Of a stretch of 64,000 nt of DNA, positions 1-40,732 are shown in pieces; within the stretch, counting starts at the first letter, position 1; each line of letters begins with the position of its first letter. Made by a program: the position numbers and the translations under genes. This DNA is from Pythium myriotylum (lineage: Eukaryota > Oomycota > Peronosporomycetes > Pythiales > Pythiaceae), in assembly GCA_023091665.1 (NCBI GenBank), contig JALJCQ010000022.1, positions 992,001 to 1,056,000 on the forward strand, in the 5' to 3' direction. The notes below the pieces were generated by a model. The model was not told where the DNA came from. It did not search any database and saw only the letters and a list, made by a program, of their open reading frames with translations.

Positions 1-575
1 GTGTCTGGTCTCAGCAAGAGCACGACCTCTTCCTTGAGGCGATGCAGCTCTACCCGAACGGGCCGTGGAAAGCTGTCGCGGACCATGTCGGCACACGATC
101 TGTCCGTCAGGTGCAAACACACGCGCAAAAGTACCACGAAAAGGTGGCGCGGCGTCTTCGAGGTCTTCGAAAAGACCGCAAGCGAGTGCAGCGACCAGAG
201 CACCGCATCGACGACGAGATGCTGGAGATTTGCAACGATCTTCAGAACGACAATGCTTTGCTTCCGCAGAAGCCAGCGGGGAAGAGACAGCGTAAGCGTC
301 AACAGGAAGAAGACACTTCCACCACGACGTCCCCAGTGACCACGAAGCGAGAAGCGACTCCCAGCGTCATGAGTTCCCACGAGGAGTCCAAGCTCTCGGA
401 GAGCATGCAGAGCGTCCGCTTCAGTGAGATGGGCGAACTCGATCCAGTGTGGGGTGTTTCCTTGGGAGTCCCAGGAGAAGACGACGGGAGCGCAATGGAC
501 CCGTCGTTCCATGAATGTATTGACTACCTTATTGAAGCCCTCAGCTCCAGCGACAGCGAGTACGAGTCAAGCTGA
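1..575 (+). CDS. Myb-like SHAQKYF-class transcription factor 1 (5' end outside window)
   Basis: Single-repeat Myb protein, expected to be a nuclear DNA-binding regulator. The reading frame is open from base 3 to the left edge, so the start and N-terminus are missing. The visible protein begins inside the first Myb helix (VWSQQEHDLFLEAM), then PNGPWKAVADHVGTRSVRQ and the recognition-helix motif THAQKYH. Next come RGLRKDRKRVQRPEHRIDD, an extension shared by most Myb proteins in this cluster, a charged low-complexity middle, and a C-terminus with CIDYLIEALSSSDSEYESS. It heads a tandem series; the next paralogue starts 285 bp downstream on the same strand. DNA target unknown. Confidence 0.9.
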   Translation, partial: VWSQQEHDLFLEAMQLYPNGPWKAVADHVGTRSVRQVQTHAQKYHEKVARRLRGLRKDRKRVQRPEHRIDDEMLEICNDLQNDNALLPQKPAGKRQRKRQQEEDTSTTTSPVTTKREATPSVMSSHEESKLSESMQSVRFSEMGELDPVWGVSLGVPGEDDGSAMDPSFHECIDYLIEALSSSDSEYESS

Positions 576-860
576 GCGAATAGGTGTTCTGAGCGTTGTC
601 GCGTAGACGAAATCGGTGGTTAGTAAGTAGTTGTAGATGAATCGCAGAGAAATATATAGCGAGTTTGATTATTGATTCGTGGGGCCATCGAAAAATAATC
701 TAATCAATTGGTGTCACATTTCCATCTACTGAGACTGTAACATCAACTCCCTTAGTTTACGCATCTGGTCAAGTGAGCCGCTCGTTGCGTCGCACACCTG
801 GAATATCCCCCTCGCGAGAAGGGCCCACTAATTCGTTCGCCACGACTCGGACGCGGCGAA

Positions 861-1388
861 ATGTCAAACTCGAACAAGACCACGAGCTCCAAGGCGACCT
901 CCAAAGGCGTCTGGTCGAAGGAAGAGCATGCTCGCTTCCAAGAGGCCATGCAACTCTTCCCGAAAGGTCCGTGGAAGGCCGTCGCAGACCACGTGGGCAC
1001 GCGATCCATCCGCCAGGTCCAGACCCACGCGCAGCAATGCCACGAGAAAGTAGCGCGTCGCCTTCGAGGACTTCGCGTGGACCGACCCGAGCGCCGTCTC
1101 GACGACAAGGTGCTCGAGATTTGCAACGAGCTCCAGAACGACACCTCAGTGCTTCCGTCCAAGAAGCGACCGCAACATTCGAAGGATCAAGAAACCCCCA
1201 CGAGCGTTCGTTTGCCGGGAATCACAGTCAGCTCCGAGATCGTGGGTCAACTCGGTACAACTGGTGGCTTTTACGTCGAAGCCCCGCCGCGAATGGGAGC
1301 GATCCGTCTTCAGCAACACCGTGAGGGTGTGATGAGTCCGTGGCACAGTGACACGTACGAGAGCACTCTATACAACGAACAGGTCTGA
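861..1388 (+). CDS. Myb-like SHAQKYF-class protein 2, divergent copy
   Basis: Paralogue of gene 1 starting at an ATG (MSNSNKTTSS) 17 residues before the Myb repeat. The two tryptophans are near residues 18 and 38, and the SHAQKYF-equivalent motif reads THAQQCH (55-61), so the usual KY pair is lost. The following extension is about 5 residues shorter than in gene 1 and reads RPERRLDD instead of RPEHRIDD. The C-terminus lacks the IDYLxxAL/SDSEYE tail of genes 1, 3, 4 and 5. The frame is intact (175 aa), so this may be a functional variant or a gene starting to decay. Family assignment is firm; activity is uncertain. Confidence 0.85.
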   Translation: MSNSNKTTSSKATSKGVWSKEEHARFQEAMQLFPKGPWKAVADHVGTRSIRQVQTHAQQCHEKVARRLRGLRVDRPERRLDDKVLEICNELQNDTSVLPSKKRPQHSKDQETPTSVRLPGITVSSEIVGQLGTTGGFYVEAPPRMGAIRLQQHREGVMSPWHSDTYESTLYNEQV

Positions 1389-3046: not shown

Positions 3047-3646
3047 ATGTTTCAAGAAATTAAGTTGGAAGAAGTCCCTCGACTCGGCCCCAATGGAAAG
3101 ATCCGCGAAGGCGTGAACCTCTTTAAGGGCGTCTGGTCTCAGCAGGAGCACGACCTCTTCCTCGAAGCGATGCAGCTATTCCCGAATGGATCGTGGAAGG
3201 CTGTTGCGAATCACGTCGGCACGCGATCTGCCCGCCAAGTGCAAACCCACGCGCAGAAGTACCACGAGAAAGTCGCTCGGCGACTTCGTGGGCTGCGCAA
3301 AGACCGTAAGCGCGTAAGGCGTTTAGAACACCGCATTGACGAGCAGATGCTGCAGATCAGCAATGAACTCCAGAGTTATAGAGAACCGGGGAAGCGATTG
3401 AGGTCTGAAGCGAACCAGGATGTCTCCAGAGCAATCACGGCAGGACTGTATATCCCGACTAGTCAAGTGGAGAAAGTTAGTGCGGAGAAGCAGTCCCCAG
3501 GTTCCCACGGGCGCGTTGGAACTGAAGCCAGCAGCAACGATAACCTCGAAGAAAGAAGTCACGCAGACGTCGCGCTTGCTTCGTTACGCGAATATATCGA
3601 CTACCTGTTCGACGCCATAAACTCGAGTGATAGTGAGTACGAATGA
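3047..3646 (+). CDS. Myb-like SHAQKYF-class transcription factor 3
   Basis: Intact 199-aa member of the same subgroup as genes 1, 4 and 5. The Myb repeat has tryptophans at residues 30 and 50, THAQKYH at 67-73 and the extension RGLRKDRKRVRRLEHRID ending near residue 98. A variable polar middle follows, then the subgroup tail EYIDYLFDAINSSDSEYE at the very end (about 182-199). The ATG is preceded by an A/C-rich leader (ccaacaacgccacaaatg) and begins a 26-residue N-terminal arm, comparable with genes 4 and 5. Downstream sequence up to about 4,800 is duplicated elsewhere in the window. Expected role: nuclear transcription factor; target unknown. Confidence 0.92.
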   Translation: MFQEIKLEEVPRLGPNGKIREGVNLFKGVWSQQEHDLFLEAMQLFPNGSWKAVANHVGTRSARQVQTHAQKYHEKVARRLRGLRKDRKRVRRLEHRIDEQMLQISNELQSYREPGKRLRSEANQDVSRAITAGLYIPTSQVEKVSAEKQSPGSHGRVGTEASSNDNLEERSHADVALASLREYIDYLFDAINSSDSEYE

Positions 3647-4795: not shown

Positions 4796-4810
4796 TGAGT
4801 CAACTTAATT

Positions 4811-5307: not shown

Positions 5308-8300
5308 CTAAGACGCGGGGGCCATATTTGCAGTGGAGGCCCTCCACTGGAGATAGTCACCAAGAATTAGTGGTGTAAGTCCGCTCCAGTCGGGATGGTC
5401 GGACGGGTGAAATGTTTGGAGGCTGCACTTGGAGTCCATCGCAACATTGGCTGCAAAGTCGGCCATCTTATTGTATGCACGAAGGTGGTGACGCCACTCG
5501 TGCACTTGAAGACGGTCGGCGGCGAGCCGAGATAGGGAGTAGAGCTGTCGAAGACGCTCCTTTTTGGGTGGGCGATACTGGGACACCTGACGGAGGATAA
5601 CTTGGCTATCCCCAATGACCGTAAGAGGTCGTCATCGGTGTTGTTCCGCAGCCGTGAGCCCGATATGGAGGCCGGTGTACTCGGCCAGGTTGTTGGTGGT
5701 GGTCGGCAATACCAGACTGGTCGCAGCGCTCCAAATCAGTGTGTGACTGGAGCCATCTTCGTCGACACGAAGGATGACGGATCCGGCGCCACCAGGCCCG
5801 GGATTACCCCGTGACCCTACATCGAAGAACAGGAGAAAGTTCGGCCGGGTGGACGGGATGTTCGGTGGAGGCGCATATTCAGAGGCGGAGGCGGTCCACA
5901 TCCGTCTTAGTACAGCCGCCATCGCACTACACGGTGCCATCGCTTGGGTCTGTAGAAGACACGCAGTGAATGATGCATCCGCCGCCGCACGCGCTTGGTC
6001 GGTGGTCCAACGAGTGGTGTCTGGTGGATGTTGGTGCCTCCAGCGCCAGATGAGTTGAAAGGCCGTCACGACTTGAAGGCTCCAGAGGGTCGCAAACTCG
6101 TCGTGCAGAGTGGTAGCCCAATCAATTTCCTCTGCTCCGTGAGGGACGAGTTGGCTCGCGATCGGTGGCGTGATGTCAAGCGTCATCGAGAAGACGGCAA
6201 ACTTGAAGGCTTCGTTGACTGTGCTGGTCTTGTGCCGCCACGAGCCGATCGACGCCCATTTAGATCGAAGGAGTTCCCAGATGAGCTGAGCGCGTGGGCA
6301 TGTCCAAAAGATATGGAACACGTGCCCGCCTTCGGACCCGAGCGCCGGGCAATGTGGGCACCCATAGCGATGAGAAGAGAGATCCCAGCCGGAGAGTCGT
6401 TGTCCTTTGATTCGCATGGCCAGGAGTCGCTGCTGGCTGGTGGTAGCCGGCATACTAGCAACCTGCTTCCAGGACACCGCTGCGAGAGCGGATCCGATAG
6501 TGGGGTCCCGCGTGGTTGCGGCATCTGCTCTGGCACGTATTTCCGCCTGCGCCTTGGCCATCGTGGCTGGTACGGACCCTCTGGAGGTAGTTGCAGGCTG
6601 GCTCCATATCTGGACGCAAGGTACGAGCGTAGGATGAGGCTCGAAACGAACGATTCCGTGCCCTGCGCTCTTTGCTACCGTCGCTGCCGCTCGCATCGAC
6701 GTCACAGGTCCAAGATCTTCTTCCGCTGATGAGGAGAAAACTCGGACAAGATGCACCTGGTCGTCGACTATTTGGAGTTTCCACACGTCTTCGGACGAAG
6801 GATGAGGGCAAAGCACGTCCAAAGGGTCGTGGCGAAGCCGTACATCCGGGTAGTTGTAGACGATTGCGTCGCATAGGATGCGAAAGCTGCGAGCAGCACG
6901 TGGGGACAGCGGGTATCGTCGAGTTTTGCAACGGAAACCCAGGCAATCAGAAGAGAAGCGTTCGATCTCCACGACGTCTCCAAGAGTGGCTCCAGAGCTG
7001 AATAGATCTGGTATGTCGTTCCATGTAAGGCGACGCAATGGCGTTGTTCGAACGATATCTGCTCCGAGAATCGGCGACGCAAGGAGCGCTGCAAGGGAGA
7101 ATCTGCCAAGTGTCTCTCTTTGATATGCTGCGAGTGCGTCGAGTCCTTCGCGTTTGGACGAGAAGTCGCAGACGAGTTGGGTCCCGATCCACCTCCGCTC
7201 CGCTAGGAGCCCCTTTCCACATCCCTCGAGCAGGGGGCTCAGGAGGCGTAGTTCGCCGTCCTGGCGTGGTTGGGTTGTGGTATTCCGAAGGCTCCGTAGT
7301 CCTGTGAGGGGGAGAGAGGAGCCGACTTTTTGCTTGGCCATTGGGAGTCTGCCAGCTCCGACCCAGGCCCCGCTCCGTACTCCTGCAGAGTGGAGCAAAA
7401 TTTGCCCCACTGCTGCTGAGACTGGGTTGTCGGTGGTGGACCACCTCTGGACCGCGTTCACGGAGACTCGCTGGAGCAGGAGGCGAAAGTCGGGCAGTCC
7501 GATGCCGCCTTCGTTGAGCTTCAGCGCGGCAACATGTCGAGGGAGCCAGGCCCTTCCAATGCGTTTACGGCCACTGATGACTCCATGGAAGACAAAGTTC
7601 TTCAAGAGGCGTGCAATTTCATCCATAATCGGTGGGGTGGGCCAGCAATGTCGTGCGACGAACTCCAATTTTGGAACAATGACGGCTCGACACAGCTCAG
7701 CGCGTTGAGGAATGTTCGTGGTTTTGATCTCCGCAAGGTGCAGGCGGGTTTGAATCTGTTGCACCACTTTCGACCATACCGTACCCGGGGAGGCGTCGCT
7801 GGCCACAAGCACGCCCAGGTGTCTCACCAAAACGTGTCTTTCCAGAACCGGTATGTCCAGCGCACGATGTTCTGGCGTCGGGCCGAGTCTGGAGACCGCC
7901 GCAGATTGCTCTTGCTCAGGTTGACGCGAAGACCAGAAGCAGCGCCGAAGTCGTTCAGCAGACGGAGCAGTGCCGGGAGTTCTGAGGGCGAGGAGAGATA
8001 CGCGGTCGTGTCATCGGCATAACCAGCAAGCGAGATCGCAAGGGTATCACTCAGCTGTACTCCAGATATCTCCGGCGAAGCTTGGACCGCTTCGTACAGA
8101 CAGTCGAGCGCTAACACGAAAAGGACTGGGGCAAGAGGACATCCTTGACGAATGCCATTGAAGACATCGACCGGATCGGAGATGTCGCCTTCGCCCATGA
8201 ATGCTGCTGTCGTTGCAAGGTGCATTTGATGGACCGTGTCGACGAACTTGATCGGGAAACCATGTCGTCGGAGAGCTCTCCACAAGAACTCTCTGTTGAG

Positions 8301-8459
8301 GGTATCATATGCTTTTGCGAAGTCGAGCATGACCGCAACAGTGGAGGATGGGAGTTCACCGTGATCAACGCGGGCCTTGACTGCCGCCCAAACATCAATG
8401 GCGTCATGCACTTGCCGTTTGCCTACGAATCCAAATTGGCGAAGTATACTAGTCGGTTT
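5308..8459 (-). pseudogene. LINE reverse transcriptase with zinc finger and RNase H, broken
   Basis: Reading on the minus strand: RT fingers/palm starting near ILRQFGFVGKRQVHDAID, FDxxxA-type block (VMLDFAKAYDTLN), GIRQGCPLAPVLF, and the catalytic AGYADDTTAYL. Then comes an RT thumb, a zinc-binding GCPHC...H...C block (GCPHCPALGSEGGHVFHIFW), and an RNase H domain with FFDVGSRGNPGPGG, NNLAEYTGL, VIGDSQV and NKMADFAAN holding the four acidic residues. A frameshift lies near 7,830-7,870, and an in-frame TGA at 5,632-5,634 splits RNase H just before VIGDSQ. The endonuclease and RT N-terminus are absent. RNase H after RT fits the I/Tad-like LINE groups; the exact clade is not determined. Confidence 0.85.
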
Positions 8460-12547: not shown

Positions 12548-13644
12548 AAGATCCTGTATGATTAGAGTCTAGAAATCGAAGGGGCAGTTGCACACGCGCG
12601 AAATCCATTACACTTCGCACCTCTGTACTTTTCCAGCACACACAGATCCAGACAGCGAACAGGTGGTTTGTTGTATCCACGAGAACCCACTCCTTTTTGT
12701 GGCAGCCCACGCAGTGGGTGCCAGTCACAACCATTGCGGACAACCGTCTGGATAGATATAAGGCCTGAAATTGACTTTCCTGTCGTCCACTTGGGAGATC
12801 CGGGGCGCCAGAAACTACTTCGCAGTCTGAACAGCATGTCTGGCCTATCTGGGAACCACCGAGGCGCTCGTTCTTGGCAACCATCGCCGAAATATTAATG
12901 ATGGGAACGTGGATGCCATTGTACAAAGTAGCACCTTCGAACAAAGAGACACGAGAGGAGTAGCACACACCACTCAGCACTATGCTTGAAGACGAGAAAA
13001 ACGTCGAAGGAATCTCTGGGCACCGTACCGAGAAGAACTTTGAAGGAATCCATGGGCAGGGTACCAGTCCAAGAGTCATAGAAGGCGCGGAGATCTCCAA
13101 GGGCGTCTGGTCCCAGCAAGAGCACGATCTCTTTCTCGAAGCCATGCAGATCTATCCGCGAGGCTCATGGCGGGCGATCGCAAACCACGTCGGCACGCGG
13201 TCTGCCCGTCAGGTGCAAACCCATGCTCAGAAATACAATGAGAAAGTCGCTCGGCGCCTTCGTGGTCTGCGAAAATACCGCAAGCAAGTCGTGCGTCCCG
13301 AGCATCGTATCGACAACGTCATGTTGCAGGTTTGCAACGATCTTCATAGCGATAAAGAAACCCGACAGAGTGATTCGCGCGTGAGGAAGCAATCGTCAGG
13401 CGAACCGCGCGATGATACCACCAACGAAACCACGACAGCATTTTATATCTCAACGAGTCAAGTGGAGAATGTTGGGAACGAGATAGAGTCCCGAGATCGC
13501 AACCGGGACGTTGGAATTCAAGAAACTAGCGATGATGGTCTCCAAGACCGGAGTTCCGGAGACGATGCACTGGCGTCGTTATGCGAGTATATCGACTACC
13601 TCTTCGATGCCCTGAGCTCGAGTGAGAGTGAGTACGAATGAAAC
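12548..13644 (+). repeat. Near-identical duplicated block, copy A (contains Myb gene 4)
   Basis: Matches 16,196-17,294 with only a 2-bp indel (near 12,676) and two substitutions near the 3' end, read base by base. It includes 434 bp of 5' sequence and the whole Myb gene. Sequence on both sides is only distantly similar or unrelated. Confidence 0.9.
12982..13641 (+). CDS. Myb-like SHAQKYF-class transcription factor 4
   Basis: 219-aa protein with a 40-residue N-terminal arm, Myb tryptophans at 43 and 63, THAQKYN at 80-86, and the extension RGLRKYRKQVVRPEHRID ending at 111. The KDR of gene 3 is KYR here. A polar middle leads to the subgroup tail EYIDYLFDALSSSESEYE. It is the twin of gene 5, from which it differs at two residues in the last six. 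The ATG follows cactcagcact and is preceded by a long leader that is also conserved between the twins, which suggests the promoter is included in the homogenised block. Confidence 0.92.
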   Translation: MLEDEKNVEGISGHRTEKNFEGIHGQGTSPRVIEGAEISKGVWSQQEHDLFLEAMQIYPRGSWRAIANHVGTRSARQVQTHAQKYNEKVARRLRGLRKYRKQVVRPEHRIDNVMLQVCNDLHSDKETRQSDSRVRKQSSGEPRDDTTNETTTAFYISTSQVENVGNEIESRDRNRDVGIQETSDDGLQDRSSGDDALASLCEYIDYLFDALSSSESEYE

Positions 13645-16195: not shown

Positions 16196-17294
16196 AAGAT
16201 CCTGTATGATTAGAGTCTAGAAATCGAAGGGGCAGTTGCACACGCGCGAAATCCATTACACTTCGCACCTCTGTACTTTTCCAGCACACACAGATCCAGA
16301 CAGCGAACAGGTGGTTTGTTGTATCTCCACGAGAACCCACTCCTTTTTGTGGCAGCCCACGCAGTGGGTGCCAGTCACAACCATTGCGGACAACCGTCTG
16401 GATAGATATAAGGCCTGAAATTGACTTTCCTGTCGTCCACTTGGGAGATCCGGGGCGCCAGAAACTACTTCGCAGTCTGAACAGCATGTCTGGCCTATCT
16501 GGGAACCACCGAGGCGCTCGTTCTTGGCAACCATCGCCGAAATATTAATGATGGGAACGTGGATGCCATTGTACAAAGTAGCACCTTCGAACAAAGAGAC
16601 ACGAGAGGAGTAGCACACACCACTCAGCACTATGCTTGAAGACGAGAAAAACGTCGAAGGAATCTCTGGGCACCGTACCGAGAAGAACTTTGAAGGAATC
16701 CATGGGCAGGGTACCAGTCCAAGAGTCATAGAAGGCGCGGAGATCTCCAAGGGCGTCTGGTCCCAGCAAGAGCACGATCTCTTTCTCGAAGCCATGCAGA
16801 TCTATCCGCGAGGCTCATGGCGGGCGATCGCAAACCACGTCGGCACGCGGTCTGCCCGTCAGGTGCAAACCCATGCTCAGAAATACAATGAGAAAGTCGC
16901 TCGGCGCCTTCGTGGTCTGCGAAAATACCGCAAGCAAGTCGTGCGTCCCGAGCATCGTATCGACAACGTCATGTTGCAGGTTTGCAACGATCTTCATAGC
17001 GATAAAGAAACCCGACAGAGTGATTCGCGCGTGAGGAAGCAATCGTCAGGCGAACCGCGCGATGATACCACCAACGAAACCACGACAGCATTTTATATCT
17101 CAACGAGTCAAGTGGAGAATGTTGGGAACGAGATAGAGTCCCGAGATCGCAACCGGGACGTTGGAATTCAAGAAACTAGCGATGATGGTCTCCAAGACCG
17201 GAGTTCCGGAGACGATGCACTGGCGTCGTTATGCGAGTATATCGACTACCTCTTCGATGCCCTGAGCTCGAGTGATAGTGAGCACGAATGAAAC
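16196..17294 (+). repeat. Near-identical duplicated block, copy B (contains Myb gene 5)
   Basis: Twin of 12,548-13,644; see copy A. Confidence 0.9.
16632..17291 (+). CDS. Myb-like SHAQKYF-class transcription factor 5 (twin of gene 4)
   Basis: 219 aa, identical to gene 4 except that its tail reads SSSDSEHE instead of SSSESEYE. The Myb repeat (tryptophans 43 and 63), THAQKYN and the EHRID extension are intact, so both twins should bind the same DNA. Its 3' flank diverges from that of gene 4 three bases after the stop. Instead it resembles the gene 3 flank from about 17,466 on, including a hairpin about 300 bp past the stop. Confidence 0.92.
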   Translation: MLEDEKNVEGISGHRTEKNFEGIHGQGTSPRVIEGAEISKGVWSQQEHDLFLEAMQIYPRGSWRAIANHVGTRSARQVQTHAQKYNEKVARRLRGLRKYRKQVVRPEHRIDNVMLQVCNDLHSDKETRQSDSRVRKQSSGEPRDDTTNETTTAFYISTSQVENVGNEIESRDRNRDVGIQETSDDGLQDRSSGDDALASLCEYIDYLFDALSSSDSEHE

Positions 17295-19867: not shown

Positions 19868-20572
19868 ATGAACTTTGCTCGCCTCCGACTCTCCAGCGAG
19901 GACACCACGACGCCGGCGCCGGCGCCCGAGCGCGGCGTCTGGTCGCAGGCCGAGCACGACAAGTTCCTCGAAGCCACGACGCTTTTCCCGAATGGGCCGT
20001 GGAAGGCCATCGCCGACCACGTGGGCACGCGCTCGGTGCGCCAGGTGCAGACCCACGCGCAAAAGTACCAGGAAAAAGTCGCTCGCCGTGAGCGCGGGCT
20101 CCAGAAGAACCGCCAGAAAGTGCAGCGCACCGAGCACCGCGTCGACGAGGCGTCGTTCGACTTTGTCAACCGCCCACGCGCTGCGAACGGACGCAAGCGA
20201 GGCTCCACGAACAAGGGCACGCCGGCCCCGCGGTCCACGGGCCCGTCCATCTTTAGCGGTATGGGCACGTCGCCGCCAGATGAACTGCTCCTCGAGGTCG
20301 CCGGGTTGTTTGAGCGAGACTCGACGCCGCGAGATGTGCCGTCGCCGCTGCCGTTCCGCCCCGAGATGCCCAGTGTGACGATCGAGCGGATAGAAAACCT
20401 GTCGATCGAAGACCCCAAGGCCGAGGAAGCCAAGCTCATCCAAGAGACCGCGCCGCAGAACCCCGTGAGCGCCCACGAAGTACCGACCATCAACGAGTCG
20501 CTCGACTACTTTTTGAGGTTCATGTCGGTCTGGGGGTCGGGCCCCATGGGCCACCACGGCTTCCGGAGGTGA
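19868..20572 (+). CDS. Myb-like SHAQKYF-class transcription factor 6
   Basis: 234 aa from the first ATG close to the Myb repeat (MNFARLRLSS); the open frame extends upstream but without another good start. Tryptophans at 25 and 45, THAQKYQ at 62-68, then RRERGLQKNRQKVQRTEHRV, a subgroup-specific version of the extension, followed by a basic FDFVNRPRA..GRKRG patch that could act as a nuclear signal. The tail SLDYFLRFMSVWGSGPMG is shared in form with gene 7. G+C and codon use are higher in GC3 than in genes 1-5, so this subgroup is an older or differently constrained lineage. Confidence 0.92.
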   Translation: MNFARLRLSSEDTTTPAPAPERGVWSQAEHDKFLEATTLFPNGPWKAIADHVGTRSVRQVQTHAQKYQEKVARRERGLQKNRQKVQRTEHRVDEASFDFVNRPRAANGRKRGSTNKGTPAPRSTGPSIFSGMGTSPPDELLLEVAGLFERDSTPRDVPSPLPFRPEMPSVTIERIENLSIEDPKAEEAKLIQETAPQNPVSAHEVPTINESLDYFLRFMSVWGSGPMGHHGFRR

Positions 20573-21054: not shown

Positions 21055-21523
21055 GGATGTCGCGTGGAGAGCGCGTGGTGGATTCTCAATTGTGGATAAC
21101 TGAAACGAAAATCGAAAGAAGCCGGCCATTGTGGATCACGAAAATTGGGCGGGCGGCTGTTCCACTGGGGGCGATTTGGAACCTCCCAGAACCTATATAC
21201 CACCATTCATCAGCACCTTGGAACCGGCTTGACTGCCCTTTCGACTATTGACTCGGTCCCTCTAATAATAAATACATCTTTCGTGAAAAATTTCCCCCCT
21301 CAAAAACACCTCAACGAGAAGAGTCCTGATTCATCTCTCGGCTGCAATCTGTCACCAGGCTCCGCGGATGGGGAAAAGTCGAGCGCCGATTATGCCCCGC
21401 TCGGGAGACGTCAAGGTGTCACACGACGACCAGCTCAAGCGTGCAGTCACCAACTGCACGTGTACCGTAGGGCTCGCGTAAGGAGCGCTTCTCCTCCTCC
21501 ACTTCGCCTCCTCCCTCGGCCCC

Positions 21524-22381
21524 ATGGCCGACGACGTCGAGTACACGCCGCCCACCGCCGTCGAGCGCGGCGTCTGGTCCCAGGAAGAGCACGACAAGTT
21601 CCTCGAGGCCGTGACGCAGTACCCGAACGGGCCCTGGAAGGCCATCGCGGCGCTCATCGGCACGCGCTCGGTGCGCCAGGTGCAGACCCACGCGCAAAAG
21701 TACCAGGAAAAAGTCAACCGCCGCCAGCGCGGGCTCCAGAAGAACCGCCAGCGAGTGCAGCGCACCGAGCACCGCGTCGAAGAGGCCACCTACGACTTCC
21801 TCCAGCGCCCGCGCGCCGTCAAGGGCCGCAAGCGAGGCAAGTACAACAAGCGCAACCCGCGCGTCGCGCCCATCCCGCCGCGCCCACGCACGGTCTCGAA
21901 CGCCGTCGCCGCCGCCGCCGCCGTCTCGGCGCAGCTCTCGTCTGGCTCGGCGTCGGCGCCGCCCTCGCCCAAGCACGAGGATATCGTACCGCCTCCGTCT
22001 GTGGCGTCGGGGGGTGACGACGCGCCGCTGCCGTCGCCCAACGAAGTCCACAGCCCCGACATTTTCAAAGACCACGCGGGAGAAGAGCTGCTGCGCGAGA
22101 GCGACCAGCTCTTCCAGCTCGACTCGCCCGCTCTGCCGCCGCTCGTCGCCGACGGCTCGCCACTGCTGACGGCCGCGGAGCCCGAGCCCGAGACCATCGA
22201 CAGCCTGCTCTACGACGACATTGTCGCCGTGGAAGAAGCCCCCGAGCACGCCCTCGACGTCGGCGACGTGCCCTCGCTCAACGAGGCACTCGACTACTTC
22301 CTCAAGGTCATGACGGTGTGGGGACCAGGCCCTGGCTCGAGCGGCGCACACCTCAGCAGTCCGTCCGGCGGCCACCGATGA
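21524..22381 (+). CDS. Myb-like SHAQKYF-class transcription factor 7
   Basis: 285 aa, the closest relative of gene 6. Myb repeat with tryptophans at 18 and 38, THAQKYQ at 55-61, then the extension QRGLQKNRQRVQRTEHRVEE and a basic stretch (VKGRKRGKYNKRN). A long alanine/proline/serine-rich acidic middle is typical of an activation or linker region. The C-terminal part has SLNEALDYFLKVMTVWGPGP. Starts at an ATG in ccatggcc context, 15 residues before the repeat. Genes 6 and 7 are tandem, 0.95 kb apart, and form their own subgroup. Confidence 0.93.
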   Translation: MADDVEYTPPTAVERGVWSQEEHDKFLEAVTQYPNGPWKAIAALIGTRSVRQVQTHAQKYQEKVNRRQRGLQKNRQRVQRTEHRVEEATYDFLQRPRAVKGRKRGKYNKRNPRVAPIPPRPRTVSNAVAAAAAVSAQLSSGSASAPPSPKHEDIVPPPSVASGGDDAPLPSPNEVHSPDIFKDHAGEELLRESDQLFQLDSPALPPLVADGSPLLTAAEPEPETIDSLLYDDIVAVEEAPEHALDVGDVPSLNEALDYFLKVMTVWGPGPGSSGAHLSSPSGGHR

Positions 22382-25494: not shown

Positions 25495-27693
25495 GAGGAG
25501 AGCTCAAGAGCGACTGAGGCGAAGTGGAGAGCGCGAGAAGGGAGACGAGAGGTGGCGGAGCGTAGAGCGTTACAGACTGAGGCGCTGGGAAGATCGTGCG
25601 GGGAGGAGGACGCTTGCGGGAGGCGGCGGCAGCGCAAGTGTCCGACGCCTCGGTCGGCGTCGCATACAGAGCGAGGGAGGGCGAAAGGTTGTCGATAGTA
25701 GATATCCATCGGTATAGAAGGGGGGATACATATTTAAGAGGTAAACGGCAGTGTAGTTGTTGCGGATGTAGAGGGAGGAGGACGTGGGGGTATGGGATAT
25801 GAGAGGTGTGTCCAGTTGCGACTCTTGAGGCAATCCAGGTGGGCAACTGAACCTTTGTACAATCACGACCTCAAAGAGAAGGCGCTGATGGATGTGATTG
25901 GCTGCAGGAAGAACTGTTCGGGAGGACGGAGGTTCAAACACCAAATGCACGGAACGAGAGGGCTCGGTGTAAAAGTTTGACGGTCCATTTTGAAAGCGTT
26001 CTCTTTCTTGTTGTCTCTCGACACGACTTGATGGGGGGAAGACATCGCCATGCGATGACCAAACGAGAGAAGAGTTGCCGTGTGCAGTAGTGAACGCAGC
26101 CTCGGAATGTGGAGCACGCAGGGTGGTCGGTGGATGGGTCGATTTAACACACGTCTCGGGTGAAATGTTAAATATGATGCATAAAGTTAAGAAATCTTTC
26201 TCACACCGGAACCTCACAACCGGTTGAATGTCGGTTTCGTAACCCCGTGACACGTAACCTTGTTTTACTCGCGTTATAGGATATTGCATTTGATAGAATA
26301 TGTTACAACGGAGGTGGCGATCATGTGCGACAACGACGAGAGCTGCAACTGGGACACGACACGATGCTCGTCAGCAGCGTTGCCCCGATCCGCCAGTCGT
26401 CGACAACTCGATGGAACGCCTTGGAGAGATGTCGTCTCCCCTCTCGCCCACGCGTGTCAAGCCCAGTGGTCGCATCGTGGACCCTTTCAGTGATAGATAT
26501 GTGACAATGTCGAATGGACAAACTAACAATCCCAACCGAGCGACCAACTAGCGAATAAAGAAATGGACTCGTTCTGCTTGACAAGCCACGCAAGCCGATA
26601 AACGCCGACGAGGGCCCAGGTCCAGTGGTGCAATTGTCCTACGGATCCCGATGGGCGTCGATTCAAAGTGGACAGTCAAATCTGCAGCGAGTGAGTGGGA
26701 CCTTTCAACTGGATTGTGCCCAACTCATCGAGCGCCAACAATGCAGTGTGATTCACTGTATTCGCGATTTATCAGATCCACAATGTGTTGACTCGAAATC
26801 CGGGAGTACAGTGTACCTCCACGTGGACACGACTGGTTAAGATGAGGAAACATGGGTGCAAGTGTCTGACATCGATATGATGCCTACCAAAAAGTGGCCA
26901 ATCGACGCAATCATTCCGTTGGAAAAGAACGACCGTACCGAAGGATTCTCGAGGAGAATTCACCTACAGCAGGTGAGTTGGGTAGTTCTGTCCTGCGTTC
27001 TGTGTCGAAAAGGCGTGTCCACCACTACAGCTCCACGGTGTTCCCTCGAGATGCCGCACCTCTGAGGGAGAGACCTTTAGATCAATGAAGCAAGCGAGCA
27101 ATCCAGCTCAAAGCATGTCGTCAAATAGAACTAAACAACTAAGTGTGTGAGATTGATATCTTTGCATTCCAAGAATGCAGAGTCGTCGTGATATAGATCT
27201 GCGTGGCGGCGAAGATCGACAATGCTGAGTTCAGATCTCGCCAATTGCCATACTAATCCATTTCCTTGTGCCGCGTTGAGCCACCTCGAAGCCAGCACGC
27301 TGTCCAACGCTGGACATTGGTGCCACGTGCACTACGTACGTACTGGACGAGTGTGTCCGAGTAGCTTCTGCGCCCGAGAAGGATGCAAACGGATTGCAAG
27401 AGGGAATCGAAGCCTCGCATCAGTCAGCGATTCGCCAACTTGCATGATATCTGAAGGAGATGGATTCATTCCATTTTCCTAAAACAAGGTCCCACAGCAT
27501 ACAAATCCCAAGTAGTTCTAATCTCAGCTACAATTTTTTCTTACCTTGCTTTGATCACTGTGGATCCATGGTTGCAGGTGTCACACGCTACGGTTGCACG
27601 GCCGGGCACCTCGGAACACCATCCTTATACAGGCCGCTACGCCCGCACGCGCGTTGATGTGAATCTCAGCCCAATGGGCAACTCTTCTTTTGA
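25495..27693 (+). other. 2.2-kb intergenic region, nothing recognised
   Basis: Holds the promoter side of the PLC-like gene (left) and of Myb gene 8 (right). Open frames here (for example 25,570-26,289 minus) have no family features and look random. Confidence 0.55.
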
Positions 27694-28434
27694 ATGGCTC
27701 CGTATCTCGACGACATCCGGGAAGATGGTCGGGCCTTGGAGATTTCTGTTCCGCTGCCAAGAGATGTCTACACCAATGGCTTCATTGCCTCGCGACGGGT
27801 CATTCCGCAACTTGCCTCGCGCATGCACAATCCCAACGACCACACTACCAATCCATCTCTGAACTCCGCACCCATGATCGGCCAGCCACTCCCGACGCCT
27901 ACGAGCTCGATCCCGGGCAACCCATACATCGATGTCTTCCACCGCAAGGCAGCACCAAAGCCCCACGGGTGGACAGACGCCATTAACAATGGTGTCTGGT
28001 CCGAGGAAGAGCACGCACGCTTCATGGAGGCGCTGCGCATGTACCCTGGTGGCCCCTGGCGACTCGTGGCCGAGCACGTCGGCACGCGTACGGTGCGCCA
28101 GGTGCAGACCCACATGCAAAAGATCAACGAGAAGGCGCGGCGCCACCGCCGTGGCCTCCACAAGAAGCGAAAGGAGCGCCCACGCAGCGAGCCCATCGGC
28201 TCAGTGTCCGCTATCTCCTCCTCAGATGACGACGAGCGCGCGAGCGACTCGGACCAGAGCGTGATCTTCGATCCCATCGTGCTCTCGCCAAGCTGGGACG
28301 CCGCTGCAGCCTCGTCGTCGACCGAGGCATTCGGTGAGGACGAGCTCGTCTTCGACGACTCGTTGATCAGTGAGCTCAACCTCGACGGCATGGAGGATCT
28401 CTTCGGCGCGCTTTTCACGGACCTCAGCTCCTAA
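27694..28434 (+). CDS. Myb-like protein 8, divergent recognition helix
   Basis: 246 aa with an unusually long N-terminal arm (about 100 residues, Pro/Ser/Asn-rich) before the Myb repeat (tryptophans at 102 and 122). The motif corresponding to SHAQKYF reads THMQKIN (139-145): Ala and the aromatic are both replaced. The EHRID extension is absent (RKERPRSEPIGS instead). The C-terminus keeps an acidic-hydrophobic helix (LISELNLDGMEDLFGALFTD) that may replace the LDY tail of its relatives. Altered DNA specificity is likely but not shown. The ATG is the first in frame close to the conserved part; the true start could be nearer the repeat. Confidence 0.85.
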   Translation: MAPYLDDIREDGRALEISVPLPRDVYTNGFIASRRVIPQLASRMHNPNDHTTNPSLNSAPMIGQPLPTPTSSIPGNPYIDVFHRKAAPKPHGWTDAINNGVWSEEEHARFMEALRMYPGGPWRLVAEHVGTRTVRQVQTHMQKINEKARRHRRGLHKKRKERPRSEPIGSVSAISSSDDDERASDSDQSVIFDPIVLSPSWDAAAASSSTEAFGEDELVFDDSLISELNLDGMEDLFGALFTDLSS

Positions 28435-29455: not shown

Positions 29456-29947
29456 ATGAACACAAACGTCAACCGCGGCGTCTGGTCAGCCGACGAGCAC
29501 GATCGCTTCCTCCAAGCCATCCAGGTCTACCCGCATGGGCCCTGGCGTTACGTTGCCAAGCACGTCGGCACTCGCGGCGTTCGACAAGTGCAAACCCACG
29601 CCCAAAAATACTACGAAAAAGTCGGAAGACACATGCGAGGTCTCCGCAAAGAGCGACGCAGCTGGGTGCGGTCCGAGCACCGCATCGACGATCTCCCTCC
29701 GGGTCTCCAACGACCTCTCGGGCCCTCCAACATCCAAGCACGGCTACATTCAACTCCTTCACTCGATGAGGCAGCCTCGATGCCCATGTACATCCCCATC
29801 CCGCCGACAGCAGCCCAGACTCATCAACAAGATCCTGAGTGGTTGCTCTCGGATATGGCCCATTCAGCACCCGAACTGGGCCTTCTCGCGCAGCTGCCAT
29901 CGCTAGAAGAGTCTCTGGACATGCTGCTCGAGTGCCTTTCCGACTAG
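29456..29947 (+). CDS. Myb-like SHAQKYF-class transcription factor 9
   Basis: 163 aa, a compact form: the Myb repeat begins almost at the start (tryptophans at 10 and 30), THAQKYY 47-53, extension RGLRKERRSWVRSEHRIDD to residue 79, a short proline-rich linker, and the tail SLEESLDMLLECLSD as the last residues. The first ATG of the frame was chosen; upstream codons in frame lack an ATG. Similar layout to genes 10 and 11. Confidence 0.92.
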   Translation: MNTNVNRGVWSADEHDRFLQAIQVYPHGPWRYVAKHVGTRGVRQVQTHAQKYYEKVGRHMRGLRKERRSWVRSEHRIDDLPPGLQRPLGPSNIQARLHSTPSLDEAASMPMYIPIPPTAAQTHQQDPEWLLSDMAHSAPELGLLAQLPSLEESLDMLLECLSD

Positions 29948-30919: not shown

Positions 30920-31393
30920 ATGAAGCAAGGCGTGTGGTCCCACGAAGAGCACGACCGCTTCCTCGCGGGCGTCAAGATCTACCCGGACGGCCCCTGGCGG
31001 CTCATCGCTCGCTACGTCGGCACGCGCTCGGTGCGCCAGGTGCAGACCCACGCGCAAAAGTACCACGAGAAGATCGCGCGTCGCATGCGAGGACTCCGCA
31101 AGGAGCGACGCAACCACGTGCGAGAGGAGCACCGCATCGACGGCGACGTCTTTGCACTGCGCACGGCGCCGCCAGCAGTGGGCTTGGAGCCGCCGACGTT
31201 TGCGATGCCGAGCTTCTATCTCCCGCACGAGCACCACGGTGCGTTTGCAGAGACCAAGCCGCCGTCGATCTTGTTGCCGCCGCTGCGACTGCCGGCGCCC
31301 GTGATGATCCATGAAGAGCACCATGAAGCACTCGCACTGGACTATTTCGCGCATGCGATGAGTAGCACAGATCGAGCATCCGCGGTTGTCTAG
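30920..31393 (+). CDS. Myb-like SHAQKYF-class transcription factor 10
   Basis: 157 aa starting MKQGVWSHEEHDRFL, so the Myb repeat is N-terminal (tryptophans 6 and 26). THAQKYH 43-49, extension RGLRKERRNHVREEHRID to 74. The C-terminal part keeps EALALDYFAHAMSS, a relaxed form of the LDY tail, followed by 9 extra residues. The start shared with gene 11 (MKQG) supports this ATG. Convergent with gene 11, 275 bp apart, suggesting an inverted duplication. Confidence 0.92.
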   Translation: MKQGVWSHEEHDRFLAGVKIYPDGPWRLIARYVGTRSVRQVQTHAQKYHEKIARRMRGLRKERRNHVREEHRIDGDVFALRTAPPAVGLEPPTFAMPSFYLPHEHHGAFAETKPPSILLPPLRLPAPVMIHEEHHEALALDYFAHAMSSTDRASAVV

Positions 31394-31668: not shown

Positions 31669-32211
31669 TCAGTCCGAGAAGTGCTCGATGAGAAAGTCCA
31701 GCGACTCGCTGAGGGATGGCAGCCCGCCGTCAAAGTCGAACGTGGCATCCCAGCTCTCCATCTTGGTCTCGTGGTCCTCGTGCTTGATGGTCGGGCTCCC
31801 AAACGAGAGTTCCAACGGCTCAATGCCCTCCACACCCACAGGGCTGCGTGGTGTCGTGTCGCCCGAGATCTGCTTCAGGAGCTCTTCAAAGCTCACGTTC
31901 ACAGGCTCCAATGGGAGCTTCTGCAGTACCGACGACGTGGGCAAGCCAAAGCCCTCGGAGCGGCGACACGACTCGAGGATCTCCTCGTCGATGCGGTGTT
32001 CCGTGCGCGCCCAGGTCTTGCGGTCCTTGTGCATGCCGCGCATGCGGCGCTGGATCTTCTCGTGGTACTTTTGCGCGTGGGTCTGCACTTGACGCACCGA
32101 GCGCGTGCCAATGTACTTGGAGATGACGCGCCACGGGCCTTGCGGGTAGATCTTGATGGCGTCGAGGAAGCGGTCGTGCTCCTCCTGGGTCCAGATGCCT
32201 TGCTTCATCAT
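31669..32211 (-). CDS. Myb-like SHAQKYF-class transcription factor 11
   Basis: The only minus-strand Myb in the cluster. 180 aa from MMKQGIWTQEEHDRFL; an alternative ATG 51 bases upstream (MGASFPFFLGSS) would add 17 residues. Tryptophans at 7 and 27, THAQKYH 44-50, extension MRGMHKDRKTWARTEHRIDE, acidic middle, tail SLSESLDFLIEHFSD at the end. A (CT)n run on the coding strand lies about 50-90 bp upstream of the outer ATG and is probably leader or promoter. Closest in layout to gene 10, its convergent neighbour. Confidence 0.92.
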   Translation of the reverse strand: MMKQGIWTQEEHDRFLDAIKIYPQGPWRVISKYIGTRSVRQVQTHAQKYHEKIQRRMRGMHKDRKTWARTEHRIDEEILESCRRSEGFGLPTSSVLQKLPLEPVNVSFEELLKQISGDTTPRSPVGVEGIEPLELSFGSPTIKHEDHETKMESWDATFDFDGGLPSLSESLDFLIEHFSD

Positions 32212-32354: not shown

Positions 32355-34345
32355 CTCTGAAGACACGCACGGCTACAACTTGGTGCAACTCTCGTCCCGT
32401 CCGTGCGCCGACAGCGCTGGCCCGTGGAACCGTGTGACACACGGTCGGTCCAACGGCGACTTGCTTTCCTTCTCTTCTCGAGTGATTCAATCTCTGCGTA
32501 ATGAGGCCATTCCGTCTGAGCAAGCGAAACGAGCGACTCGCTTCCGTTGAGGAGCTAACGACGGTGCATAGACAGGCTGGTTTCCTGTGACGACTTCCGC
32601 TGGCACAACCGCGAGAGTGGGATGAGATGTCCCGGTTGTGTGCAGTAGTTGTCGTTTTGCATAGATGCAAGCGACGAGCCACCTCCCGCGCAACTTCGCC
32701 GGGGACAACCGCTTCTCGTAAACAACTCCGTCTCGGATGTTTGCACGTTGCAGGAAACTTCTCCTTTTCATTGGATACCTCCTGCAGACGACAGCGGTAA
32801 ATGTTCAGCGTGGTGCACGCCAGTTGTCGTCACTGGCGCCCATTAACGACTGACGAGTGACCGGCGCACCTGTGCCTGGCGACGGGTCGATACCGGGGCG
32901 GTTCTGGCCGCGTTCTCTACAGCTTCTCGCGAATTCCAGACGATAGAACAGTCAGGTTTTCGACGGACATTGACATCGAACAGATCTTTCTTTTGCGCTT
33001 CGATCCGATCTCAGCCACACGGCGCGAAGCCACAAAGATCCTAGGTGCTGGTCGTTGCTCTTCGCGACCCCAAGCAAACCGAGGGCCAAGGACAACGGTC
33101 AGCGCAGTGTCCTCAGCCGGGAGAAAAAGGTTGCGCCAACTTAGCATGCTCTCGATGTCATGCTGCCTCGGACCAGCTCCGGGCATCCCCCCATCCTAGT
33201 TCGTCGGTTGAAGTGGCCTGCGAGCCACAAGTTCATCGGCACGTTGTGTCTCCTCAGCATGAACCGAAAATTTATGCTTGGATAATCCTGCTTCGACATG
33301 ACGCATAAAACGAGCCGCACCAACACTCTTTCCAGATTCTCCGATTTCGGCAATCGAGAAGCCAGATCTCAGGACTGCCATTGCCGAGCATAAACTCTCT
33401 CACCACGAAAGCAACCGACGGGAGGGCAATAGGCAATAGGCACGCAATCGCTCAGTTTCAAGCTCTCTGTGTTTCTTTATTTCGAGCGAACCCGTGGTTT
33501 TCAAAGGCGCACAAAGAAGTCTGTGGTAATTATTATCAGGAGACTTGCTCTTGTCTGACGGTGAGACCATCCGATCTGAGTGATGGTCTGCGCCCGGTGC
33601 TGCACGGCTTGATATCAGCACTTTTGCTCTTGTCCACATGTTCGAGCAGCTGCGATGCAACTCGCCCCGGTTATGGCCACCTTGTCCCGGCGTTGTGCCC
33701 TTTCGGTCATATTACAAAATCCCACTGTCGCGATAAAATGGCTCAAGGATTCCACTGTTTTGCAGGACTAATCGTTCTCGGCTTGTCGACGGCGTTTACG
33801 GTGGTCTCTCGCTCGCTCACGACAGCCCGTCCGCGACTTTACAAGCGCTCACGAGACAGACTTCGTCGCGCGTCTCTGTTCTGTAAATTGCGTCCTCGAT
33901 CTTTTCCTGCCTCTGGACTCATGGTCAAGAGAACCGACGCGCTAGTTTCCATCAAGACCACTCACCCCTTGCTGCTGACCCGAATCGCTGCTTGCGTCCA
34001 TCAAATAGCTGAGCAGGCTTCCGTGGGTAGCGAATGAATCAACAACGAATTGAGGAAATCCCAACGACTTGCTCTAGTTTTGTTATTCGGATCCGACGAA
34101 TATCAAAATTTAGCATTTCCGTCAACTCAAGGTCTCCGCTCCGGCTGGTCTATTCTGATCGGAGATCGGGGGGAGGGAGGGCTTCCTAGCGTCTGTCTCG
34201 CTGGTGCTGCTGCTCACGCTGTAGCCACTACTAATGGGTATACTAGATAGCGACGCATCCCCGTTCGTTCGAGTCGCGATTCGCCATCACCCGCCTGTCT
34301 GATTCGCTCGCCAACTTCGCTCGCCAACATTCCGAGTGATCGGAT
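32212..34345 (+). other. 2.1-kb intergenic region
   Basis: Contains the 5' region of Myb gene 11 with the GA/CT microsatellite (32,314-32,352). A 99-codon frame at 33,738-34,037 starts with a signal-peptide-like MAQGFHCFAGLIVLGLS but the rest has no family features; not called as a gene. Confidence 0.5.
32314..32352. repeat. (AG)n microsatellite in the 5' region of Myb gene 11
   Basis: About 19 AG units, CT on the coding strand. Confidence 0.95.
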
Positions 34346-37256: not shown

Positions 37257-37913
37257 ATGGCAAAGCTCGGTCGGGGTGTATGGTCCACGGACGAGCACGA
37301 CAGGTTCCTCGACGCCATTCGACTCTTCCCTGACGGCCCGTGGCTCGAGATCTCCAAGTTTATCGGCACGCGCTCGCCGCGCCAAGTGCAAACCCATGCG
37401 CAAAAGTACTACGAGAAGATCGAGCGCCGACTGCGCGGCCTGCGGCGTGATCGACAAGTCACCAACGGGCGAGAACACCGTATCGAGAAACGGATCTTGT
37501 CGCTCGTCTCGGCCGAGTCACCCGAGCGTGAATTTGTGAAGCGACACGTTGCTGCAATCCGGAGGCGGCCGCGAGTTCGAGCAGAGCCGATATCAGATCT
37601 TTCCGGAGACGAAGGCCACACGAGCGACGAGAGCGCACAGCAAGACCTAGCCACACCGCCGTGTCTCCAGCGCCTACGTGCGCTTCCCCTCACTCCACTT
37701 CCACTGAAGTTCGAAGAGAAAGAGACGCTGTCCACGATTGAAGAGATCGATCCGACGGTTGTGCTTCCGTCGTTTGAGCAGTCTCTCGACTTCCTCATCG
37801 CGTGCCTCGAGACAAGAGCGCAAGATGAGCTACACATGAAAAGGCCTGGCGCCGGCAGGATCACTGTGGCGAGTTGCGTGGAGCTCGTGAGGAGTGCAGT
37901 AGACAGTAAGTAG
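37257..37913 (+). CDS. Myb-like SHAQKYF-class transcription factor 12
   Basis: 218 aa from MAKLGRGVWSTDEHDRFLD. Tryptophans 9 and 29, and the TRSPRQVQTHAQKYY segment near 39-52 with Pro before RQV, as also in gene 13. Extension RGLRRDRQVTNGREHRIEKR (His-Arg-Ile kept, Asp replaced by Glu). The LDY motif (SFEQSLDFLIACLE, about 172-185) is not terminal: 33 further residues follow, including HMKRPGAGRITVASC, so this copy has a C-terminal addition. Genes 12 and 13 are tandem and closest to each other. Confidence 0.92.
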   Translation: MAKLGRGVWSTDEHDRFLDAIRLFPDGPWLEISKFIGTRSPRQVQTHAQKYYEKIERRLRGLRRDRQVTNGREHRIEKRILSLVSAESPEREFVKRHVAAIRRRPRVRAEPISDLSGDEGHTSDESAQQDLATPPCLQRLRALPLTPLPLKFEEKETLSTIEEIDPTVVLPSFEQSLDFLIACLETRAQDELHMKRPGAGRITVASCVELVRSAVDSK

Positions 37914-38358: not shown

Positions 38359-38931
38359 ATGGCACCGTACAGTCAAGGGCTCTGGCAAGAAGACGAGCAC
38401 CAGCGGTTCCTGGATGCGCTCAAACTCTATCCACAAGGTCCGTGGGCTGACATTGCCCAGTTCGTGGGCACGCGTTCGCCTCGTCAAGTTCAAACCCATG
38501 CGCAAAAGTACTATGAGAAGATCGAACGCCATCTGCGAGGCCTCCAGCGGGACCGACGAGGTGGTGTACGCGCGCGAAGCACAGGCGAACGCATCCGGGC
38601 GATAGGGCTCACCCGAGAACACGAGATCGACCAGGAGATCCTCGAGGCCTGCAGTCGTGCGATGGAGCTGGGCGAGCGCCTGCCGACTCCAGCAAAGCCG
38701 AGGAAAGCCGACTCCTCGCGTGCAGCCTCGCGTGAGGAGTTCATCGAAGGATCAGGCTGGTCCACTGTGGATCCGCGCGGGTCGGTTGAAGATGATGGAA
38801 ACGACGACTTACTGCCGCTCGACAAGTCGCTCGACTTCTTGATCGAGGTGCTCGCGGGGCTCGATGACCAATCTAACCAGTTGGCCACGCTGGACGGGGG
38901 CGAGGCAGACGCCAGGCTGTCATATCTCTAA
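38359..38931 (+). CDS. Myb-like SHAQKYF-class transcription factor 13
   Basis: 190 aa from MAPYSQGLWQEDEHQRFLD. Tryptophans 9 and 29, THAQKYY 46-52. The extension differs: after RGLQRDRRGG there is an insertion of about 15 residues (VRARSTGERIRAIGLTR) before EHEID, so the normally fixed RGL-to-EHRID spacing is broken and Arg is replaced by Glu. The C-terminal part has PLDKSLDFLIEVLAGLDD followed by 15 more residues. Same strand and subgroup as gene 12. Confidence 0.91.
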   Translation: MAPYSQGLWQEDEHQRFLDALKLYPQGPWADIAQFVGTRSPRQVQTHAQKYYEKIERHLRGLQRDRRGGVRARSTGERIRAIGLTREHEIDQEILEACSRAMELGERLPTPAKPRKADSSRAASREEFIEGSGWSTVDPRGSVEDDGNDDLLPLDKSLDFLIEVLAGLDDQSNQLATLDGGEADARLSYL

Positions 38932-39889
38932 GTTACTTTTATACAGACCCCAAAACACACCATCAACAGATCATAAACGTGAAAAATTGGGAGACAATGA
39001 TTGTGGGTGCATCCCAGCTCATTTTAGAAAGACTGTCGAGGAACATTCGCACGAAGCAGTGGCCATGCACCCACGGGGGTCGAAGATCACTGGCGCGTTC
39101 TTTCGCGAACTTCCACGCGCCGCAACCTACCGTATGAGTCGCTACGTAGCTCAGCACCCAATGCTTTTCGATCCATCCTATCGGCCTTATGGACGCTGGC
39201 AAACGAACCAATTTGCGGTACTCATCGTCGAGGAGTCTGGGTATGCTGGGAATGAAATCTCACATGGCTCTTGCTGACATTTGCGCTGATCTCACGATCC
39301 GAAGTATGGATAGTGTGGATTCTCAAAGGCGATCGAGTGGATTTCAACCGCGAGATCTCACCACGTGTTGCTGTCACCGACTGGGAGATACACTGTACAA
39401 CCTGCAGAACCCTCGAGTAGGTGCAGAAACCATTGCCGATTCGTACATGGAAGATGCGAAAGGCGGCTGTCCGTCCAGCAAACCAGGTCTTGGACACTCT
39501 GGCGCCATTCGCTTAGCGCACCTAATATCCGAACCCAACAACGCTACATCAGTAGTCCAACTCGTATCAGAGCTTTGCACTTACAGCGAGCGCCGTCACG
39601 TTGGCCATGGAGAGGTACTAAGATAGATAGTTTCGGCAGAAAAATCGGGCCAGTTTATGGGCAGGTGGCCGTGGCTTCGTTCTCTCCGTGGGATCCTTCG
39701 CTCGGTTGTTTGGCTACAGAGGTGCACCCACGGTCTCCGCTATCAGATCATACTCACTCACTCACTCAACCCAGTCTCCTCTCTTTGGGTGTGGCCTCAC
39801 GGCCACTTCTCTTTTCGTTCGCCAGCACCTTCCTCCACAATCGAATTCGCCAAATCCGTCGCACACTCATTTTTTTTATTTGACTAAGC
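38932..39889 (+). other. Intergenic, nothing recognised
   Basis: Random open frames only. The last 150 bases are the CT-rich leader side of Myb gene 14. Confidence 0.5.
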
Positions 39890-40732
39890 ATGAAACGCGG
39901 AGTGTGGTCTGAGGAAGAACACACGCGCTTCCTGGACGCCATCCGCCACTACCCGGAAGGCCCGTGGTCCAAGATCGCCGCCTGCATCGGCTCGCGCTCG
40001 GCGCGCCAGGTCCAGACCCATGCTCAGCGCTACTACGAGAAAGTACAGCGCCATGTGCGAGGCCTCCAGCGAGACCGATCCAAGTCGACCCACAAGGAGC
40101 ACCGCATCGATAAGGACATTCTGAGACTCCAACACCTCCACCGCATCGCCAAGTCGGCGTCGCAGGATGCCGCTCGCGCGAGAGCGCGCTCTGGCGACGC
40201 GCCCGAGCCGGACCAGGAACCCCACCGAAGACTTTATCGAAGCAAAGATCCGCCGCCGTGTCTGCAGCGGCTGACGGGGCTGCCTGCGCAGCAATCTCCC
40301 GTTGGCGTGAACGACACGACGATGCTCTCACCTCGCTATGACGCGCCACCGGGATACTACGAGCATGGTGGTTACCACCATCCTGTCAGCCCCACCTATG
40401 GACAGTCCAATGGGACCCCCCACGGACTGCAGTATGCACGCCATGACTCCGCCTACTCTCACCCACCACCTCTGCCGTCACCGCTCAGTCAACGAAGCTA
40501 TCCTCTCATGCCTCCTCTCGGATCCATCGCCCCGAGGCTCTCAGAGACGCGGCCTCAGTACTCCAGTTATGGTAGTGGCTACTTTTCATCGGGCGGCGGA
40601 AGCCCCACGAGTCTGCCGTCGCCGCACGACTCGCAGGTGATCACGAGCTCGATCCGAGGTGTCGACGAGCACCGTCGCCCGACGTTGACGTGGAGTCAGC
40701 CTGGACTGCTGTTACCCCGGATCTTTTCATGA
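39890..40732 (+). CDS. Myb-like SHAQKYF-class transcription factor 14, long Pro/Ser/Tyr tail
   Basis: 280 aa from MKRGVWSEEEHTRFLD. Tryptophans 6 and 26, motif THAQRYY (43-49, Lys to Arg), extension RGLQRDRSKSTHKEHRIDKD. The remaining two thirds differ from all other copies: Pro, Ser, Tyr, Gly and His-rich (for example RYDAPPGYYEHGGYHHPVSP), probably disordered, and without an LDY tail. This could be an activation or condensation-prone region (inference). It is the last Myb of the cluster, 143 bp from the end of the convergent bZIP gene. Confidence 0.9.
   Translation: MKRGVWSEEEHTRFLDAIRHYPEGPWSKIAACIGSRSARQVQTHAQRYYEKVQRHVRGLQRDRSKSTHKEHRIDKDILRLQHLHRIAKSASQDAARARARSGDAPEPDQEPHRRLYRSKDPPPCLQRLTGLPAQQSPVGVNDTTMLSPRYDAPPGYYEHGGYHHPVSPTYGQSNGTPHGLQYARHDSAYSHPPPLPSPLSQRSYPLMPPLGSIAPRLSETRPQYSSYGSGYFSSGGGSPTSLPSPHDSQVITSSIRGVDEHRRPTLTWSQPGLLLPRIFS

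Follow-up and report, generated by a model that had tools for sequence, protein, structure and literature searches.

A THAQKY-form array of single-repeat Myb genes around a VPS9-domain gene in the oomycete Pythium myriotylum

Transcription factor (TF) families of Phytophthora infestans are clustered, which has been ascribed to unequal crossing-over, and their expansions, called ancient, are less extensive than those of plants and animals; the paralogues have similar binding domains and often distinct expression (PMC11267843). The clusters named there differ from the genes described below in being of the bZIP and C2H2 types, and the Myb binding work dealt with two- and three-repeat (2R and 3R) proteins. 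In brown algae the THAQKY proteins are the largest subgroup of single-repeat (1R) Mybs, a form present in Dictyostelium too, and tandem pairs are known in Ectocarpus (PMC8854648). The Myb passages of PMC10433877 concern plant genes. Here we describe an array of 1R Myb genes of Pythium myriotylum (assembly GCA_023091665.1), most of which lie in the window, the 64,000-nucleotide stretch of contig JALJCQ010000022.1 (C22; other contigs are named likewise) from 992,001 to 1,056,000. The genome searched amounts to 58.7 Mb in 55 contigs.

The array fits the P. infestans trend of clustered, anciently expanded TF families. It shares with the brown-algal proteins the THAQKY letters of helix 3 and is set apart from them by description only, an array this large, its conserved block and its C-terminal motif being unmentioned in the part of PMC8854648 available. 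No description of an oomycete single-repeat Myb array was found in the literature searched, outside which most subscription papers fall. The reading that we favour, with a probability of about 0.6, is that of an ancestral oomycete array of THAQKY-form, SHAQKYF-class Myb genes around a VPS9-domain gene, turned over by local duplication and decay, whose products would be TFs with shared DNA sites and a shared cofactor.

The array and the class of its repeat

Matches to PF00249, checked against the translations, were found at 14 places between positions 1 and 40,033 of the window, 13 on the + strand and one on the − strand. This confirmed the proposal, made earlier from the letters of this DNA (the sequence-only reading), of fourteen single-repeat Myb genes in 41 kb with 13 on one strand: each window gene has one match, and a single PF00249 stretch was present in each of seven proteins scanned. 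The array begins about 3.2 kb before the window, with two extra copies immediately upstream (C22:988,801 and C22:989,990), and comprises 16 Myb genes in about 44 kb; the protein search of the genome listed no further Myb copy on C22. The repeat of Myb 1 starts 4 bases left of the window and its first in-frame ATG is at C22:991,910. The clustering is far beyond chance, since 16 of the 71 SHAQKYF-class matches of the genome fall within 44 kb of 58.7 Mb. The genes, with subgroups A, B and C taken from a quick tree (see the next section), are:

1..575, +, Myb 1; subgroup A; start left of the window
861..1388, +, Myb 2; subgroup A; with THAQQC, block shortened, without C-terminal motif; possibly decaying
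3047..3646, +, Myb 3; subgroup A
12982..13641, +, Myb 4; subgroup A; inside recent duplicate copy 12453-13644
16632..17291, +, Myb 5; subgroup A; inside the other duplicate copy, 16093-17294, 97.1% identical
19868..20572, +, Myb 6; subgroup B
21524..22381, +, Myb 7; subgroup B
27694..28434, +, Myb 8; divergent (THMQKI); neither the block nor the usual C-terminal motif found
29456..29947, +, Myb 9; subgroup C
30920..31393, +, Myb 10; subgroup C
31669..32208, −, Myb 11; subgroup C; sole − strand Myb; an upstream in-frame ATG would give 197 amino acids
34346..36286, −, VPS9-domain gene (Pfam PF02204) between Mybs 11 and 12; synteny anchor
37257..37913, +, Myb 12; subgroup C
38359..38931, +, Myb 13; subgroup C; an insertion splits the block
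39890..40732, +, Myb 14; subgroup C; no match to the usual C-terminal motif

The letters SH.QK[YF] have zero occurrences in all six frames of the window, the corresponding helix-3 letters being mostly THAQKY. In a six-frame genome search 13 of the 14 window repeats, all but 861-1,388, scored above the cut-off of the SHAQKYF-class model TIGR01557; so did five of six whole proteins tested, the sixth (27,694-28,434) scoring 29.2 against a cut-off of 29.3. Assignment to the SHAQKYF class, as first proposed, thus stands by model score and not by literal letters. Since the model is what defines this class, we keep the array Mybs in it, as a variant. Nor are the THAQKY letters peculiar to this array, since brown algae and Dictyostelium have them (PMC8854648). 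The recognition stretch RQVQTH is identical in all 16 array genes, and helix 3 reads RQVQTHAQK or near variants in 14 aligned proteins, among which the telomeric LKDKWRN type was not found. EhMybS3 (PDB 6nvz), a single-repeat protein of the TIGR01557 class, is the best sequence match among solved structures and ranked second in a Foldseek search (E 0.026), which returned no whole-model fold match at E 0.001 or below. Neither the model (57 positions) nor 6nvz (60 residues) spans the RGL...EHRID block or the C-terminal helix of the array proteins.

Other open frames lie in and next to the array. A PF00078 reverse-transcriptase match (7827-8411, −) and a weak, sub-threshold match to DDE_3 (8742-9242, +) are found between Mybs 3 and 4, in a segment (5632-9242) that is identified from these predicted domains as transposon remains. 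Two long frames have no Pfam match, one of 906 codons inside the array (22774-25494, −) and one of 973 codons just to its right (44014-46935, +).

Age, relatives and turnover

The protein of the VPS9-domain gene has its best match, at 71%, in a metagenome protein and its best named match, at 58%, in Poli38472_011982 of P. oligandrum, a species whose Myb relatives carry the tags 011979, 011980, 011981 and 011984. By tag number, Myb genes are likewise found near VPS9 genes PHYPSEUDO_005099 (Mybs 005096, 005098, 005102), V7S43_014234 (014233, 014237), PRIC1_010539 (010537, 010540), PINS_up015331 (015332, 015324, 015325) and P43SY_007746 (007745), and in Globisporangium splendens the VPS9 protein and five Mybs are on a contig of the same size, 151,278. 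Species of three genera, Pythium, Globisporangium and Phytophthora, show the neighbourhood, six in all, namely those whose listings permit the comparison; for P. nicotianae, P. fragariae, G. polare and G. ultimum the listings give no basis for it. The array looks old because related Mybs adjoin the VPS9 gene in other water moulds; judged from these sequence records, it looks ancestral in oomycetes, with local turnover. Scattered single orthologues in related species find no support in the same tag-number and contig neighbourhoods.

Named relatives of the window Mybs are oomycete proteins, led by those of Pythium insidiosum and P. oligandrum, with none near-identical among the matches listed; one relative listing comprises the best 120 of 176. 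The quick tree (123 of 143 rows, leaving out a 14-copy array on C15, four more distant own copies, one stop-bearing C6 copy and one P. insidiosum protein) gave three subgroups plus the odd gene Myb 8. A careful tree and the tests of origin used 60 of the 143 rows; Myb 8 was left out for its long branch and Myb 5 as nearly identical to Myb 4. The careful tree recovered A and C only partly, so that the three subgroups first proposed are seen in full in the quick tree alone. In both domain trees the array genes fall in separate lineages with other genera interspersed, and Mybs 1, 3, 4 and 5 cluster together; subgroup B sits between the C6/C29/C23 side and the rest. A single origin was rejected for the 14 array genes included (p 3.6e-5) and, for groupings picked after a tree had been seen, for A plus C (p 2.8e-5) and for the four P. 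oligandrum cluster genes (p 0.0046). Local amplification, which the sequence-only reading had claimed, is supported; a lineage-specific origin of the array is not, in view of the rejected single origin and of the related Mybs beside VPS9, by tag number or contig, in six species. The truth lies between a lineage-specific burst and scattered single orthologues.

Of the 71 SHAQKYF-class matches in the genome, 63 are over the cut-off and 54 are in six arrays (C22, 16; C15, 14; C6, 10; C19, 6; C29, 5; C23, 3), as counted in the six-frame genome search. The C15 array (C15:2467149-2497190) is a separate set of 14 THAQKY Mybs, mostly THAQKYRQK, without EHRID block or C-terminal motif. Sister arrays with the block and mostly without the C-terminal motif are found at C6:980158-1027295 and C29:281649-297719; two adjoining P. 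oligandrum genes, Poli38472_004740 and Poli38472_004741, group with them in the quick tree.

Continuing birth and diversification had also been suggested, and there are signs of both birth and decay. A 1.2-kb unit is duplicated at 97.1% identity (12453-13644 and 16093-17294), and the genes it carries, Mybs 4 and 5, have zero synonymous differences over 180 codons compared, with two amino-acid differences close to the end. Myb 2 (861-1,388) looks decayed from its sequence, possibly, with THAQQC letters, a shortened block and no C-terminal motif, and the sister copy at C6:1,015,261 holds two in-frame stops. Synonymous distances are near saturation for most array pairs compared. The ratio of nonsynonymous to synonymous substitution rates in nine chosen pairs was 0.05-0.43 for repeat plus block (seven pairs; undefined in two) and 0.12-0.96 for tails (six pairs; undefined in three). 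The predicted DNA-binding part is constrained and the tails evolve faster.

Conserved segments, upstream sequences and neighbouring genes

A conserved block following the repeat had been reported for all fourteen window genes. In its strict form (RGL followed by EHR[IVLM]) it is present in 10 of them, altered in three (861-1,388; 31,669-32,208; 38,359-38,931) and missing from 27,694-28,434; it is missing also from both copies left of the window, which gives a strict total of 10/16 for the array. Elsewhere the strict block was found in 10/11 C6 copies, 5/5 C29 copies, 1/3 C23 copies and 69/77 relatives, and in the same genome in 0/14 genes of the C15 array and 0/10 C19 copies (77 of 159 relatives were used for block and motif counts). 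The block is a mark of one subfamily. In the two predicted structures helix 3 extends through RGL, over residues 38-69 and 62-83 respectively; directly behind EHRID, where the confidence is about 60-75, another helix begins.

The C-terminal end of most members is a motif resembling LPSLxESLDFLIExLS. A loose pattern of it matched 13/16 array genes (0.22 in shuffled tails) and 65/77 relatives (1.64), and a stricter one 10/16 and 48/77; among other groups of the genome it was met in C6 2/11, C29 0/5, C15 array 0/14, C19 3/10 and C23 2/3. The motif is modelled as a helix in both structures, with a predicted local distance difference test score (pLDDT) of 85-89 in one and of 88 in the core of the other. 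The shared, predicted C-terminal helix is, beside the block, a second and newly recognised hallmark. Tails had been thought to distinguish the subgroups; their linkers do vary, but the end motif is common to 13/16 genes, and since most members have it the differences amount to variable linkers before a mostly common end.

Plant SHAQKYF-type proteins bind the cores TATCC, GATAAG, AAATATCT and TATCCA. In the 500 bases upstream of 15 C22 genes, TATCC was present in 7 (5.7 in shuffles), GATAAG in 0 (2.1), AAATATCT in 0 (0.1) and TATCCA in 3 (1.9); regulation of the array through such sites was rejected as a candidate for want of enrichment. TATCCA is raised upstream of the C6/C29/C23 set (5/18, a level reached by 1 of 100 shuffles) and, to some extent, upstream of the C15 array (4/14; 7 of 100). 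Counting of k-mers in the 300 bases upstream identified a 10-mer, GTGTCACACG, in 4 of 15 stretches. It is read in the same orientation each time, and the genes behind it belong to subgroups A, B and C or, in one case, are the odd Myb 8. Copies recorded in the window, in gene-strand reading, are:

21416..21425, −, candidate element GTGTCACACG, before Myb 7
27578..27587, −, candidate element GTGTCACACG, before Myb 8
32431..32440, +, candidate element GTGTCACACG, before Myb 11

Of 1000 random draws of non-array DNA, 10 gave a commonest 10-mer with a count as high as 4, while 24 reached the 8-mer count of 5 and 49 the 9-mer count of 4. The genome has 122 copies of GTGTCACACG, several within tandem repeats, and 214 of the reversed control word; with one mismatch allowed, 7 are found in the window against 6.27 expected. 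We retain GTGTCACACG as a candidate for a common promoter element, and as a lead only.

To the right of the array three related protein-kinase genes are adjacent (48918-57633), their kinase parts being 45% and 37% identical in the two pairs compared. The first (48918-51530) has HLE where HRD aligns and may encode a pseudokinase beside two ordinary paralogues. A Copia-type retroelement polyprotein (59676-63905, −) is found in two open frames, with the reverse transcriptase divided between them.

Predicted mode of action and its alternatives

Each Myb would be a TF that binds DNA through its one repeat. The paralogues would read the same or overlapping sites, because RQVQTH is the same in all 16, and helix 3, running on through the RGL block, would add basic contacts. 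The C-terminal amphipathic helix would dock one common partner, most likely a co-activator. The proteins would differ mainly in timing of expression and in their linkers, and would compete at shared targets.

Several points weigh against this reading. DNA binding, activation and expression of the array Mybs are predicted, many single-repeat Mybs are without sequence-specific TF activity (PMC11267843), and the stretches in front of the array genes show no enrichment of the sites known for plant SHAQKYF-type (CCA1-like 1R) Mybs. The pattern for the C-terminal motif was composed after the sequences had been viewed, and the motif is missing from 3/16 array genes and from most sister-group copies; the EHRID region of the models has a confidence of only 60-75. 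As to age, the synteny evidence consists of locus-tag numbers and contig sizes, not DNA, and the tree is of 84 columns with many unresolved forks and recovers A and C only partly in its careful version.

The same array with the same shared sites could work through a C-terminal helix that recruits a co-repressor, or its proteins could be passive competitors. This is possible, although we would not expect it: the motif is known only as a conserved helix, from which activator and repressor are indistinguishable, but its acidic, bulky-hydrophobic ESLDFLIE resembles activation helices, which combine an acidic make-up with bulky hydrophobics. A further idea, speculative and rather doubtful, is that the Mybs around VPS9, with one recognition helix and one cofactor motif, form, at a locus conserved between oomycete genera, a replaceable, cross-competing set wired through GTGTCACACG, in which turnover of copies and of linkers would tune one common target programme. 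It is unlikely that the proteins bind telomeric or structural DNA instead of regulating target genes, as stated for many 1R Mybs (PMC11267843); TRF1/TRF2 domains are among the Foldseek matches, weakly, but the repeats pass TIGR01557, helix 3 has THAQK and not the LKDKWRN telobox motif (PMC8854648), and the many copies of the array, together with the conserved C-terminal motif, would suit regulators better. Least probable is a recent lineage-specific burst from one gene, which the 97.1% duplicate and the grouping of Mybs 1, 3, 4 and 5 would suit but which the rejected single origin, the near-saturated synonymous distances and the VPS9 neighbourhoods in six other species speak against; that rejection covers the whole array, and part of subgroup A may still fit a burst.

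On the reading that we favour, an old oomycete array of SHAQKYF-class TFs, the C-terminal motif offers a small and testable entry point to a co-regulator of oomycetes. Single-repeat Mybs of oomycetes were omitted from the binding work of PMC11267843 in the part available, yet this genome has 71 SHAQKYF-class matches. With its fixed recognition stretch, mostly fixed end and loose linkers, the old array would be a natural test of whether paralogues have targets in common and split their work by timing.

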